Positions 38,334-44,387 of a stretch of DNA of 64,000 bases are shown one piece after another. This DNA comes from Pseudofulvimonas gallinarii. Its GTDB lineage: Bacteria > Pseudomonadota > Gammaproteobacteria > Xanthomonadales > UBA2363. The stretch lies in assembly GCF_004343305.1 (NCBI RefSeq), contig NZ_SMAF01000001.1, forward strand, positions 62,001-126,000. Direction: 5' to 3'. The notes below the pieces were generated by a model. That model was not told the DNA's origin. It saw nothing but the letters and a program-made list of their open reading frames with translations, and ran no database searches. Positions within the stretch are counted from its first letter, which is position 1; each line of letters begins with the position of its first letter. The position numbers and the translations under genes were made by a program.

Positions 38334-38519
38334 TCATTCGTCATCATCGACCGGCTCGGGCCGGTCCGCGGGTTTCATGCGGCCTGCCTTGCGCAGGGCA
38401 TCGCGGAGGAGGAACTCGATCTGCGCGTTGACGCTGCGCAGATCATCGTCCGCCCAATGCTGCACCGCCGCCAGCACGGCTGGGGAAATGCGCAGGGGAT
38501 AGGCCTTTTTCTCCGCCAT
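38334..38519 (-). CDS. small ribbon-helix-helix (Arc-type) DNA-binding protein
   Basis: 61 residues. [42 protein letters not shown] fits the ribbon-helix-helix fold: the short strand YPLRIS would enter the DNA groove, followed by two helices with the Arc-like '[10 protein letters not shown]' turn. An acidic tail (PEPVDDDE) ends the protein. It is encoded 18 bp after the SPFH gene and its stop meets the hydrolase start. The repeated GATATC sites in the operon promoter are a likely target, giving autoregulation. Confidence 0.85.
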
Positions 38520-38537
38520 CGAACCGGACCGCGGCGC

Positions 38538-39404
38538 TCAGTACAGCGAGCCGGAATTGATGACCGGTTGCGCGGCGCGGTCCGAACACAGGACCACCAG
38601 CAGGTTGCTGATCATGGCTGCCTTGCGTTCCTCGTCGAGTTCGACCTGGCCACCCTGGCGCAGCTGCTCGAGCGCCATGTGCACCATGCCGACCGCACCC
38701 TCGACGATGCGCGCCCGCGCGGCAATGATCGCGCCGGCCTGCTGGCGCTGGAGCATGGCCTGGGCGATTTCCTGCGCGTAGGCAAGGTGGCTGATGCGCG
38801 CCTCGATGACCTCGACGCCTGCTTTCGCCAGGCGGTCCTGGATTTCCCGCCGCAGCTCGCGGGCGATTTCCTCGCCGTGGCTGCGCAGCGCGATCTCCAC
38901 GCCTTCGTGCATGTCATAGGGATAGCGCGTGGCCATCTGGCGCAGTGCCGATTCGGACTGGATCTGCACGAAATTCTCGTAGTCGTCGACCTCGAAGGCG
39001 GCCTCGTAGGTATCGACCACCTGCCAGACCACGACCGCGGCGATCTCGATCGGTGATCCTTCCAGTTCGTTGACCTTGAGGCGGCCGCTTTCGAAATTGC
39101 GGACGCGCTGGGAGATCTTCTTCTTCGAATAGAACGGATTGGCGAAACGCAGCCCGGTCTCGCGACAGGTGCCGACATAACGACCGAACAGGGTGAGCAC
39201 CACGCCCTGGTTGGGCTCGACCGTGAACAATCCGAACAGGCTGACGAAAGTCGCGAAGCAGACGATCGCCGAGGCGATGACCAGCCAGCCGATGCTCTGA
39301 TGCGCGGCCCATACCATGCCGTAGATGGAAGCCGGGATGGTGGCCACCAGCAGCGGCAGCGCGATCAGTCCGTGGGTCGCTTTGACGGAACGTTCGTGAC
39401 TCAT
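38538..39404 (-). CDS. SPFH (band 7/stomatin-like) membrane protein
   Basis: 288 residues from the ATG at 39404, with AAGGAG six bases upstream. Two hydrophobic segments (about 12-33 and 42-62) precede the SPFH domain: [33 protein letters not shown] (65-97), the central [20 protein letters not shown], and [32 protein letters not shown], where oligomerising helices begin. SPFH proteins build large membrane-associated cages or lipid microdomains. It is the first gene of the five-gene operon and has a well-formed promoter. Confidence 0.92.
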
Positions 39405-39430: not shown

Positions 39431-39484
39431 ACGATATCCAAATGATATCTATCTTGCAAGACGCTTGCGCTTGTGGCTGATATC
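39431..39484 (-). promoter_or_regulatory. promoter of the SPFH operon with GATATC repeats
   Basis: The -35 TTGCAA (39459-39454) and -10 TATCGT (39436-39431) are 17 bp apart, putting transcription start near 39424, 20 bases before the ATG. GATATC occurs at 39433-39438 (on the -10) and 39444-39449 (in the spacer), exactly 11 bp or one helical turn apart, and again at 39479-39484. The palindrome TCTTG-CAAGA (39452-39461) covers the -35. This is the layout of a repressor-controlled promoter. Confidence 0.65.
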
Positions 39485-39598
39485 GATTCGCATTTACAAT
39501 TCACGGCTCCGCGCTTCGCCTCCGCGCGATTTTCATGACAGAACCTAGAAGATGTCTTGCAACGTGTTGATCATGCGGCGCTTTCAGCCCTCTCGGGT

Positions 39599-40267
39599 AT
39601 GCTGAGCGCGTCACCCGCGGGCGGCGTCGAGCCCACACCCACGAGTGACGCGGACAAAGACCGACGCCGTCGCCGCGCACGGTGGCTGAAGCGGATGCAT
39701 GCCTGGCACTGGGTCAGCTCCGCAATCTGTCTGGTCGGCATGATCCTGTTCGCGGTCACCGGCATCACGCTGAATCATGCCGCCGGCATCGAGGCGCGGC
39801 CGCAGGTCCAGAACTGGACCGGAGTCCTTCCGCAGGCATTGCGCCCGTCGCTGTCACTGAAGGCTGCCAACAGCGCGTTGCCCATGGAGGTTCGTCGCTG
39901 GTTGCGCGAACAGACGGGCCAGCGCGTCCCGGTGCGGCCGGCCGAATGGTCGGACGACGAGGTCTACCTCTCGCTGCCGCGCGCCGGCGGCGACGCATGG
40001 CTGAGCATCGACCGCGCAACGGGCGAGGTGGAATACGAGCGCACCGACCGTGGCTGGGTTGCACTCTTCAACGACCTGCACAAGGGCCGCAATACCGGCC
40101 CGGCCTGGTCGTGGTTCCTGGACATCTTCGCGATCGCCTGCCTGGTGTTCTGCCTGACCGGGCTTGTGCTTCTGAAACTGCACGCCGGCCATCGTCCGTC
40201 GACCTGGCCCATGGTCATGGCGGGCCTGGCGATCCCCGTGCTGCTTGTCGTTCTTCTCCTCCACTGA
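39599..40267 (+). CDS. PepSY-associated transmembrane protein
   Basis: 222 residues from the ATG at 39599; a TTG at 39557 would add 14 residues, and no clear ribosome binding site decides it. A basic N terminus (DKDRRRRRARWLKRMHAWHWVSS) leads into a first membrane helix with ITLNHA, a periplasmic PepSY-like region, then FNDLHKGRNTGPAWSWFLDIFAIACLVFCLTGLVLL and a last helix. The His residues near helix ends (LKRMHAWH, TLNHA, DLHKG) are like heme ligands of PepSY-TM electron carriers. It opens the operon with DUF2271, DUF4198 and ApbE. Confidence 0.88.
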   Translation: MLSASPAGGVEPTPTSDADKDRRRRRARWLKRMHAWHWVSSAICLVGMILFAVTGITLNHAAGIEARPQVQNWTGVLPQALRPSLSLKAANSALPMEVRRWLREQTGQRVPVRPAEWSDDEVYLSLPRAGGDAWLSIDRATGEVEYERTDRGWVALFNDLHKGRNTGPAWSWFLDIFAIACLVFCLTGLVLLKLHAGHRPSTWPMVMAGLAIPVLLVVLLLH

Positions 40268-40280
40268 TCCGAGGACCCCG

Positions 40281-40799
40281 ATGTCCAGATCCCCACTGTC
40301 CCTGGTGGCACTGATCCTTCCTGCCTGCGCTGCCCAGGCCGCCGAACTCTCCGTCTCGGTGGAGATACCGCGACTGGATGTGGCCGAATACCACCGTCCG
40401 TATGTCGCCGCCTGGGTCGAGCGTCCCGATCGCAGCGTCGCCGCGCAACTGGCGGTGTGGTACCAGCAGTCGGAGTCGCGCGAAGGCCATGGCACCAAAT
40501 GGTTGCCCGACCTGCGCCAATGGTGGCGTCGCGGCGGACGCCAGCTGGACGTGCCCGTCGACGGCGTGACCGGTGCGACCAAAGCGCCCGGCACGCACAC
40601 GCTGCGATTCGGAGCCGGGTCCCAGGCAGTCGCGGCGCTCGCGCCAGGCAGCTATGTGCTGCTTGTAGAGGCATCCCGCGAGGTGGGTGGCCGCGAGTTG
40701 CTGCAGATTCCTTTCGAATGGCCAGCCGATGAAGCGCGCACGCTGGATGCGCGCGGTGAGCACGAGCTGGGCACGGTTTCGCTTGAACTGGTTCCCTGA
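40281..40799 (+). CDS. DUF2271 periplasmic protein, candidate flavoprotein
   Basis: 172 residues with a signal peptide (about 1-21, ending AQA). The DUF2271 core contains YVAAWVERPDRSVAAQLAVWY and WLPDLRQWWRRGG. Residues 94-100 read DGVTGAT: this DxxTGAT matches the consensus recognised by ApbE flavin transferases, with Thr100 as the expected FMN attachment residue. It lies 13 bp after the PepSY-TM gene, and ApbE is encoded two genes downstream. A role as periplasmic electron carrier is therefore likely; flavinylation itself is inferred. Confidence 0.88.
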   Translation: MSRSPLSLVALILPACAAQAAELSVSVEIPRLDVAEYHRPYVAAWVERPDRSVAAQLAVWYQQSESREGHGTKWLPDLRQWWRRGGRQLDVPVDGVTGATKAPGTHTLRFGAGSQAVAALAPGSYVLLVEASREVGGRELLQIPFEWPADEARTLDARGEHELGTVSLELVP

Positions 40800-40821
40800 T
40801 TTACCTGCTGGAGTACCGCAC

Positions 40822-41628
40822 ATGAATGCTTCCCTGCGTCGCCTTGTCCTGGTCGTGCTGGTCGTGCTGCCACTACCCGCGTTCGCGCACAAGGCCTGGC
40901 TGCTGCCTTCCGCCACCGTCCTGAGTGAAGGGCAGTGGATCACCGTCGATGGCGCGGTGTCGAACGACCTGTTCTATTTCAACCACGTGCCGCTTCGCCT
41001 CGACAATCTGGTCATCACGCGACCCGACGGCAGCGCGGGCGCCTATAGCGGTGGTCATACCGGCAAATACCGAAGCGTGTTCGATGTCGAGCTCGACAAG
41101 CCGGGCACCTGGCGGCTTGCCATCATCAATGAAGGCCTGTTTGCCAGCTGGACCGAGAACGGCGAGAGCAAGCGGTGGCGCGGCAGCGAAGCCGACCTGG
41201 CCAAGGCGCTGCCGGTTGCCGCGACCGACGTGCAGGTCACCCGCTCGCACGGTCGCATTGAAACCTTCGTCACCGCGGGTGCCCCGACCACCGCGGCGAT
41301 GAAGCTGCAGGGCAGTGGCCTTGAACTCGTGCACGACACGCATCCGAACGACCTGTACGCAGGCGAGACCACGCGCTACCAGTTCCTGCTGGACGGAAAG
41401 CCGGCAGCCGACGTCGAGGTCGAGATCGTTGCCGGTGCGACGCGCTACCGCAGCCGCCTCGGCGAAAAGCGGGTCACGACCGATGCCGAAGGGCGTTTCG
41501 AAGTCACCTGGTCCGAGCCCGGCATGTACTGGCTGGAGGCGTCCGCCTCTTCGACGCTGGAAGGCGACGCGCTTGCCAGCCAGCGTCGCGCCAGCCACGT
41601 GGTGACGCTGGAAGTCCTGCCGCAGTAA
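40822..41628 (+). CDS. DUF4198 periplasmic protein
   Basis: 268 residues. A signal peptide (about 1-22, PAFA) is followed by AHKAWLLPSATVLSEGQWITV, the DUF4198 start with His right after the cleavage site, suitable for metal binding through the free N terminus. The rest is a beta-sandwich with a C-terminal transthyretin-like module (ADVEVEIVAGATRYRSRLG onward, DAEGRFEVTWSEPGMYWLEA). The family occurs with metal uptake and with ApbE/DUF2271 sets. GGAG lies nine bases before the ATG. Confidence 0.9.
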   Translation: MNASLRRLVLVVLVVLPLPAFAHKAWLLPSATVLSEGQWITVDGAVSNDLFYFNHVPLRLDNLVITRPDGSAGAYSGGHTGKYRSVFDVELDKPGTWRLAIINEGLFASWTENGESKRWRGSEADLAKALPVAATDVQVTRSHGRIETFVTAGAPTTAAMKLQGSGLELVHDTHPNDLYAGETTRYQFLLDGKPAADVEVEIVAGATRYRSRLGEKRVTTDAEGRFEVTWSEPGMYWLEASASSTLEGDALASQRRASHVVTLEVLPQ

Positions 41629-41659
41629 TCCGGCTCCGCGTCGTTCCCGGACTCGCCAG

Positions 41660-42676
41660 ATGTCCCGCATTGCCGGCCTGTTGATCGCGCTGCTTTCATT
41701 GGCGCAGATGTCGGGATGCGGGAAGTCGACGGAAATCGTCCGCCTCGACGGGCCGACCATGGGCACGACCTGGTCGGCCCGTTTCGCGGCGCACCGTGCC
41801 ATCGATCGCGAGGTCGTGCTGCAAGCGATACGCACCGAACTGGAGGACGTCGTCGTCCAGATGAGCACCTGGCGCCGGGATTCGCTGATCAGCCGGTACA
41901 ACAACGCGGCGGCGGGAACCTGGCATGAACTGCCGGAAAGTTTCGCGATCGTCCTGGAGGCGGCCCTGGCGCTTGCCGCTGCAACCGGGGGCCATTACGA
42001 CCCGACCGTCGGACCGCTGGTCGATCTGTGGGGATTCGGTCCCGGTGGGCGCCGTGATAAGCCCCCGGCAGCGGCAGACATCGCCGCTGCGAAGGCGCGC
42101 GTCGGTTGGCAGCGCATCCAGTTCGAAGCCGGCACGCGGCGATTGCTGCAACCGGGCGGATTACGGCTCGATCTGTCCTCGATCGCCGAAGGTTTCGCCG
42201 TGGACCGCATGGGGGAGGCGCTGGAACGTCTGGGCATCGACGCGTATCTCGTCGAGATCGGCGGCGAATTGCGCGCACGCGGCAAACGTCCCGACGGCAT
42301 GCCCTGGCGTGTCGCCATCGAGCAGCCGGATAGCGGCGATGTGCCTGTGACGGTCGTACCGTTGCAGGATCTGTCGATCGCCACGTCGGGTGATTACCGC
42401 AAGTTTTTCGAGTTCGCGGGCCGGCGTTACAGCCACGCGATCGATCCGCATACGGGCTATCCGGTGCAGCACGGGTTGGCCGCGGTGACCGTGTCCGCCT
42501 CGACCTGCATGGAAGCCGGCTCGACCGCCACGGCGCTCAGCGTGCTCGGGCCGCAACGTGGATTCGACTACGCCGTGCGCAACGACATCGCCGCGCGCCT
42601 GGTGATCCGGGATGGGCCGTCCGGATTCACCGTTCGCGAAACGCCTGCGTTCACTGCGCTGGTCGACGCGCACTGA
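41660..42676 (+). CDS. apbE: FAD:protein FMN transferase (ApbE family), altered metal site
   Basis: 338 residues. A lipoprotein-type signal (LAQMSGC, Cys20) is followed by MGTTWSARF, GGHYDPTVGPLVDLWGFG, RLDLSSIAEGFAVDRMG, EIGGELRARG and YSHAIDPHTGYPV, all standard ApbE blocks. The metal-binding loop, normally of the form AD-x-x-ATA, reads EAGSTATAL: Gly287 (codon GGC at 42518-42520) replaces the Asp, one base away from GAC. Thr291 is kept. Activity may be lowered or lost, unless another residue serves. It probably acts on the DUF2271 protein of the same operon. Confidence 0.92.
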   Translation: MSRIAGLLIALLSLAQMSGCGKSTEIVRLDGPTMGTTWSARFAAHRAIDREVVLQAIRTELEDVVVQMSTWRRDSLISRYNNAAAGTWHELPESFAIVLEAALALAAATGGHYDPTVGPLVDLWGFGPGGRRDKPPAAADIAAAKARVGWQRIQFEAGTRRLLQPGGLRLDLSSIAEGFAVDRMGEALERLGIDAYLVEIGGELRARGKRPDGMPWRVAIEQPDSGDVPVTVVPLQDLSIATSGDYRKFFEFAGRRYSHAIDPHTGYPVQHGLAAVTVSASTCMEAGSTATALSVLGPQRGFDYAVRNDIAARLVIRDGPSGFTVRETPAFTALVDAH

Positions 42677-43928: not shown

Positions 43929-44387
43929 TCAGCCTTCCCGGCTGAAACGGTCCAGTTCCTGGTGGAGGGCGCGCACCGCCATTGCCGCTTCGCGATAGAG
44001 GAACAGGCAGGCGAGCAGGACCAGCGTGACGCCGGCGACGGCCAGGGCGGTTGGCAGGTGCACCAGCTGGTTGCCGAGCGCGCTGTCCGCGGCAACGGCC
44101 AGGCTGCTGCCGACGAACGCGGCCAGGGCGAGGTAAAGCAGGCGGCAGGCGGCGAGTATGAGCTGGCAGCGCGCGCGCTGGCCGGCAATGTGCTGGCGCA
44201 GGAACCGGCTGCGTTCCGGCAAGGTGTCGGCTGCTTCGCATTCGCGCATCAGCGTGCGCATGCGATCGACGACGCGTGCCAGCCGGTTGTTTCCCGACTG
44301 CAGTAGCGAGCCGGTGGCCGTCATGAACAGGGCGGGCGCCAGCATCGACAGCAGGATGGCGTACTGGCCGGCATTGCTTCCGAACAT
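43929..44387 (-). CDS. DUF2721 membrane protein
   Basis: 152 residues with three hydrophobic segments: about 8-28 ([20 protein letters not shown]), about 82-100 ([17 protein letters not shown]) and about 111-130 ([21 protein letters not shown]). A charged loop between the first and second ([15 protein letters not shown]) is the DUF2721 hallmark. The function is unknown. It is convergent with tadA, six bases apart, and divergent from orn with 50 bp between. Confidence 0.9.

Follow-up and report, generated by a model that had tools for sequence, protein, structure and literature searches.

The window (the whole 64,000-nucleotide stretch of the Pseudofulvimonas gallinarii genome analysed here) contains a cassette that probably encodes a PepSY-like flavinylated electron-transfer system induced via Fur when iron is short, in which a protein-bound FMN would reduce periplasmic iron and an ApbE with a rearranged metal site would also serve Rnf; we put the probability of this reading at roughly 0.7. 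The four-gene set is a further member of a class described from thousands of bacteria, and its interpretation is essentially published; since flavinylation, the catalogue of clusters, Fur control, and Ni2+ binding have all been reported, the central claim is already known in kind. What is new is a Fur-boxed cassette of this class that lacks a reductase, the occurrence of apbE in congeners without the other three genes or the box, and a single altered ApbE common to the genus. The initial annotation mentioned neither the Fur-type box nor the absent reductase, nor that ApbE is single in the genome and has substitutions in its active site.

The cassette (39599-42676, all on the + strand) encodes PepSY_TM_like_2, DUF2271, DUF4198, and ApbE, in the order known for such clusters (Table 1). 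The ORF coordinates and Pfam matches bear out the initial annotation, which described four co-directional genes with gaps of 13-31 bp; the individual gaps are 13, 22, and 31 bp. The genomic association of ApbE with DUF2271 and PepSY proteins, mentioned there as already reported, is indeed on record: Meheust et al. (2021) found that PepSY-like clusters often include DUF2271 (2833 clusters) and DUF4198 (1500 clusters) and proposed a role in iron reduction (PMC8238504), and a 2024 follow-up modelled the DUF2271 fold and compared the PepSY heme site (PMC11334425). Clusters of this class combine a PepSY-like gene (PF03929 or PF16357) with ApbE or a flavinylated domain, and they have conserved predicted heme-ligand histidines in the transmembrane part of PepSY; the window cassette has both. 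Elsewhere in the window, a gene for a DUF2721 membrane protein (43929-44387, - strand) lies between tadA and an exonuclease gene.

Table 1. Coordinates of the cassette genes, the adjoining landmark gene, and the sites discussed in the text (positions in the window)
Feature	Position	Strand	Basis and remarks
Band_7/SPFH gene, divergent from the cassette	38538..39404	-	Pfam; landmark beside the apbE of the congeners
Fur-type box TAAATGCGAATCGATATCAGC	39476..39496	-	trained matrix; ~100 bp upstream of the PepSY start
PepSY_TM_like_2 gene	39599..40267	+	PF16357 E=5e-81; 222 aa
DUF2271 gene	40281..40799	+	PF10029 E=9e-48; 172 aa
Codons of D94-G-V-T-G-A-T100, flavinylation motif	40560..40580	+	sequence
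DUF4198 gene	40822..41628	+	PF10670 E=6e-54; 268 aa
Codon of His23, predicted mature N-terminal metal ligand of DUF4198	40888..40890	+	76/76 conservation; homologue
ApbE FAD:protein FMN transferase gene	41660..42676	+	PF02424 E=1e-84; 338 aa
Codon of ApbE Glu177	42188..42190	+	Lys in 78/89 ApbEs; corresponds to E. coli Glu169, metal 2 ligand (PMC4767422)
Codon of ApbE Gly287	42518..42520	+	Asp in 85/89 ApbEs; corresponds to E. coli Asp280/Vc Asp285/FmnB Asp301, metal 1 ligand

According to the mechanism that we propose, iron shortage would most likely switch on the cassette through Fur. ApbE would take FMN off FAD and attach it to Thr100 of periplasmic DUF2271, PepSY would carry electrons over the inner membrane via two hemes to this FMN, and the FMN would reduce a metal centre in the periplasm, for which ferric iron or a ferric chelate is the most likely candidate. 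DUF4198 would hold a divalent metal in the periplasm via its N-terminal histidine. The metal site of ApbE would be rearranged, with Glu177 holding metal 2 and the Asp at position 287 lost, and the enzyme may also serve RnfG and RnfD. We infer iron as the acceptor, a cytosolic or quinol donor, and the activity of ApbE.

The flow of electrons from the membrane to an FMN-loaded periplasmic protein, as first suggested from the gene content, gains support from a published case of flavinylation at the equivalent Thr: in biochemical work on Amantichitinum ursilacus, the organism's ApbE flavinylated its DUF2271 protein and no longer did so after a Thr-to-Ala change (PMC8238504). The window DUF2271 has a hydrophobic N-terminal signal, is present in a single copy in the genome, and carries the motif D94-G-V-T-G-A-T100 in its translation exactly as originally described. 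The window ORFs of at least 100 aa total 78,442 residues, and the pattern D..[ST]GA[ST] occurs once in them, in this protein, which we list as a predicted ApbE substrate. We screened 398 genomes of the phylum for DUF2271 (70 matches, 65 above the cut-off), retrieved the flanks, and aligned the genes. The initial annotation had named loss of Thr100 from orthologues as the result that would speak against its reading; of the 78 PepSY/DUF2271 cassette loci aligned, 99% have Thr100 and 97% have Asp94. Its suggestion that the motif might be conserved near apbE and missing elsewhere held for the first part only. In 18 loci that contain DUF2271 and DUF4198 (most with PepSY as well) and no ApbE within ~6 kb, the target Thr is kept, with Ser in one, so the motif is not restricted to DUF2271 proteins adjoining apbE; all 18 genomes encode ApbE elsewhere.

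Several variants of DUF2271 were found in this collection. In four loci (L052, L053, L055, and L056), ApbE and DUF2271 occur as a fusion in one long ORF, and two of them (L052 and L053) retain the target Thr but have the preceding GA replaced. In a second DUF2271 clade (L057-L070), the target residue is Ser ([ST]GAS). We left out PF10029 matches with low scores in several relatives, which carry no motif and seem to be unrelated proteins; the weak, motif-less matches in L102-L107 look by eye like the flagellar hook protein FlgD, and weak PF10029 hits need checking. An alignment-based AlphaFold2 model of the window DUF2271 is a beta-sandwich (pLDDT 93) that places Thr100 (model residue 81) in the loop preceding strand 85-91. 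A fold search with this model returned nothing below E=0.001 and TM-scores (query length) of at most 0.41 among the listed hits; these are only generic beta-sandwich/C2 proteins, and the search gave no confident PDB fold match.

The PepSY_TM_like_2 protein contains three hydrophobic segments, as judged by hydropathy. Its histidines do lie near the membrane faces, as had been remarked: His37 and His60 flank segment 1, and His161 and His195 flank segment 2, with conservation across the 78 cassettes of 100% (His37), 94% (His60), 100% (His161), and 79% (His195). They are likely heme ligands, His37/His195 at the cytosolic face and His60/His161 at the periplasmic face, a pairing and topology that we infer by analogy with FoxB. 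DUF4198 appears to be secreted, with a signal peptide ending in AFA and a mature protein starting at His23; this predicted cleavage site was assigned from the AxA pattern. As in N-terminal-His metalloproteins, His23 follows the Ala that ends the signal in 76/76 homologues. The role of DUF4198, previously called open, is less so, since a homologue binds Ni2+ via its mature N-terminal His (Kd 18 nM), with Ni2+ preferred in vitro, and some members of the family adjoin NikR-type genes (PMC12537917). Single-sequence searches of solved structures with PepSY, DUF2271, and DUF4198 gave no match.

The box upstream of the cassette was identified with a 21-bp matrix seeded with the Fur consensus and refined on the upstream regions of 77 other cassettes, the window being excluded. 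With 20.4 bits (runner-up, 13.9), it outscores every other one of the 127,960 window positions. Upstream regions of the relatives score a median of 25.8 bits versus -3.5 for shuffled sequences, and 67/77 exceed the 95th percentile of the shuffles. Because the matrix was seeded with the Fur consensus, the name Fur rests on resemblance; at the sequence level, the predicted box marks the cassette as a putative member of the Fur regulon, and a Fur-family protein is encoded in the window genome. The Caulobacter genes CC_3059-3063 are Fur-regulated and iron-responsive (PMC3751524), and the matching cluster in Caulobacter is required for fitness in EDTA (PMC11870441). The neighbours examined around the window cassette include no gene for an iron transporter or TonB.

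A gene for a reductase with flavodoxin and NAD-binding domains is found near 34/36 cassettes from the same taxonomic order and 58/78 overall. The window contains no flavodoxin/NAD(P)H reductase gene, and the genome encodes no close homologue; across the genome, the top hit is a FAD/NAD-binding stretch that matches weakly (E=2e-6). The reductase is not obligatory for the PepSY-like class, as 20/78 cassettes have none nearby. In the DUF2271 clade with the Ser target (L063:5860-8576), a single protein beside DUF2271 combines PepSY_TM with flavodoxin and NAD-binding domains, and a MerR-type gene lies just upstream. This fusion supports a route from NAD(P)H through the reductase and PepSY to FMN in the family. 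For the window cassette, quinol and a general reductase are possible donors, and a cassette of this kind raises the question of whether PepSY receives its electrons from quinol or from another donor.

The window ApbE is a candidate lipoprotein (LAQMSGC) and the only one in its genome (one genome-wide match, with PF02424 above the curated cut-off). Two positions of its metal site are unusual among the 89 ApbEs that we aligned: position 287 is other than Asp only in the window, both congeners, and one distant protein, and position 177 is Glu in the window, both congeners, and one other distant protein. The alignment at Gly287 is ungapped relative to solved ApbEs (E. coli segment EADAWDTGL). The catalytic residues Ser243 (89/89) and His259 (87/89), which correspond to Vc Ser241 and His257, are kept, and Thr291 is retained. 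Absence of the metal-ligating Asp weakens the case for canonical catalysis and leaves the homology unaffected. In the E. coli enzyme, Asp280 ligates metal 1 and Glu169 metal 2, and the authors of that structure reasoned that only metal 2 should require Mg for FMN transfer (PMC4767422). FmnB Asp301 ligates both Mg ions, and Ala at Mg-coordinating residues leaves activity greatly reduced or abolished (PMC8906456); a 2025 review places the metal-ligand Asp among three conserved residues (PMC12052999). A single-sequence AlphaFold model of the window ApbE reached a pLDDT of 35 and was discarded.

Our sample of the genus consists of the window genome and both available congeners (L112 and L113). DUF2271 and PepSY_TM_like_2 are absent from both congener genomes, each of which encodes one ApbE with the same Gly287/Glu177 pair as the window protein. 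In both, apbE adjoins a Band_7 gene (72% identical), and between the two genes we found nothing resembling the PepSY/DUF2271/DUF4198 trio and no Fur-type box. In the window, the Band_7/SPFH gene is followed by a small ribbon-helix-helix-like gene (38334-39404, - strand), and this pair is kept beside apbE in both congeners. The Rnf genes of the window genome include RnfC, RnfD, and RnfG (L110:2640-6075), with DxxTGAT in RnfD and RnfG. These targets are intact in the window genome (RnfG, DHVTGAT; RnfD, DAVTGAT) as well as in both congeners (FMN_bind RnfG, DQFTGAT; RnfD, DAVTGAT), which suggests that apbE was probably kept for Rnf. Their presence rules out that apbE is dedicated to DUF2271 in the window genome. 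No FMN_bind protein was found in 29/36 related cassette genomes, so ApbE there may be dedicated to DUF2271.

The position of the trio, exactly between two genes that adjoin in both congeners, fits an insertion in the window lineage that separated Band_7 from an apbE already resident there. We consider this history rather unlikely, as the ApbEs of all three genomes fall inside the cassette group: the window and congener proteins group together (100/98) within a clade of 62 rows (91/88) that comprises 60 cassette ApbEs, the window included, and the two congeners. This nesting indicates that the congener apbE probably came from a cassette, and loss of the trio in the congeners seems the simpler reading of these sequences. 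Alternatively, the ApbE of the genus could be inactive for want of its Asp; DUF2271 would then be unflavinylated and the cassette a remnant in decay. The Asp-to-Gly change in all three genomes, the missing reductase, and the congeners' lack of the three genes and the box fit such decay, and the impaired or dead Ala mutant of FmnB (PMC8906456) counts against our main reading. Nevertheless, an inactive enzyme appears distinctly unlikely, since it would be the sole ApbE of genomes whose RnfG and RnfD targets are all intact, and since Ser243, His259, and Thr291 are kept, dN/dS is ~0.4 between congeners (NG86), and the branch lengths in the ApbE tree are ordinary. Purifying selection, ordinary branches, and intact Rnf targets together favour a working ApbE, and its sequence is consistent with a functional transferase that has a rearranged metal site. 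Following the metal-2-only argument of the E. coli authors, we propose that with Glu177 in place, metal 2 no longer depended on the Asp, which could then be lost. That the ApbE of the genus functions although it lacks the metal-1 Asp supposed to be universal, relying mainly on metal 2 after the gain of Glu177 and loading both DUF2271 and Rnf, is a tentative proposal that falls just short of an even chance. A natural Asp-to-Gly ApbE with intact targets in three genomes offers a test of whether both metal sites are needed for FMN transfer, a question left open by the E. coli structure paper.

Other evidence bears on the metal and on the electron donor. The DUF4198 homologue with its nanomolar affinity and in vitro preference for Ni2+, together with the NikR-type neighbours of some family members (PMC12537917), would suit a cassette that handles nickel or another divalent metal instead of reducing iron. 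That preference, the lack of an adjoining iron transporter or TonB gene, and a donor left missing for want of anything close to the flavodoxin-type reductase usual in such cassettes all weigh against our main reading. However, most relatives share the Fur-type box of the window, and in Caulobacter the cluster belongs to the Fur-regulated response to iron starvation (PMC3751524) and contributes to fitness in EDTA (PMC11870441). We regard a role in handling nickel or another divalent metal as very improbable and retain Fur-controlled iron reduction as the preferred reading.

Compared to the PepSY-like clusters of Meheust et al. (PMC8238504), the window cassette has the same four families and the same [ST]GA[ST] target in DUF2271. 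It differs from them in that its ApbE lacks the conserved metal-1 Asp, is the only one in the genome, and probably serves Rnf too, and in that it has neither a reductase gene nor a fused NAD-binding domain. The Caulobacter crescentus cluster CC_3059-CC_3063 (CCNA_03155-03159) likewise contains a gene for a membrane protein and, after it, those for DUF2271, DUF4198, and ApbE (PMC3751524, PMC11870441), and its Fur control is matched here by a predicted Fur-type box; however, the Caulobacter cluster ends with a gene for a sulfite-reductase-type flavoprotein, which the window cassette lacks. E. coli ApbE/Ftp (PMC4767422) and Listeria FmnB (PMC8906456) are FMN transferases homologous to the window ApbE, in which Ser243, His259, and Thr291 are retained. 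In Lys-type ApbEs, such as FmnB, both Mg ions are on Asp, whereas Glu-type ApbEs, such as that of E. coli, use a Glu (Glu169 in E. coli) to hold the second metal. The window enzyme resembles the E. coli protein in Glu177, the counterpart of Glu169, and differs from both in having Gly287 in place of the metal-ligand Asp280/Asp301.
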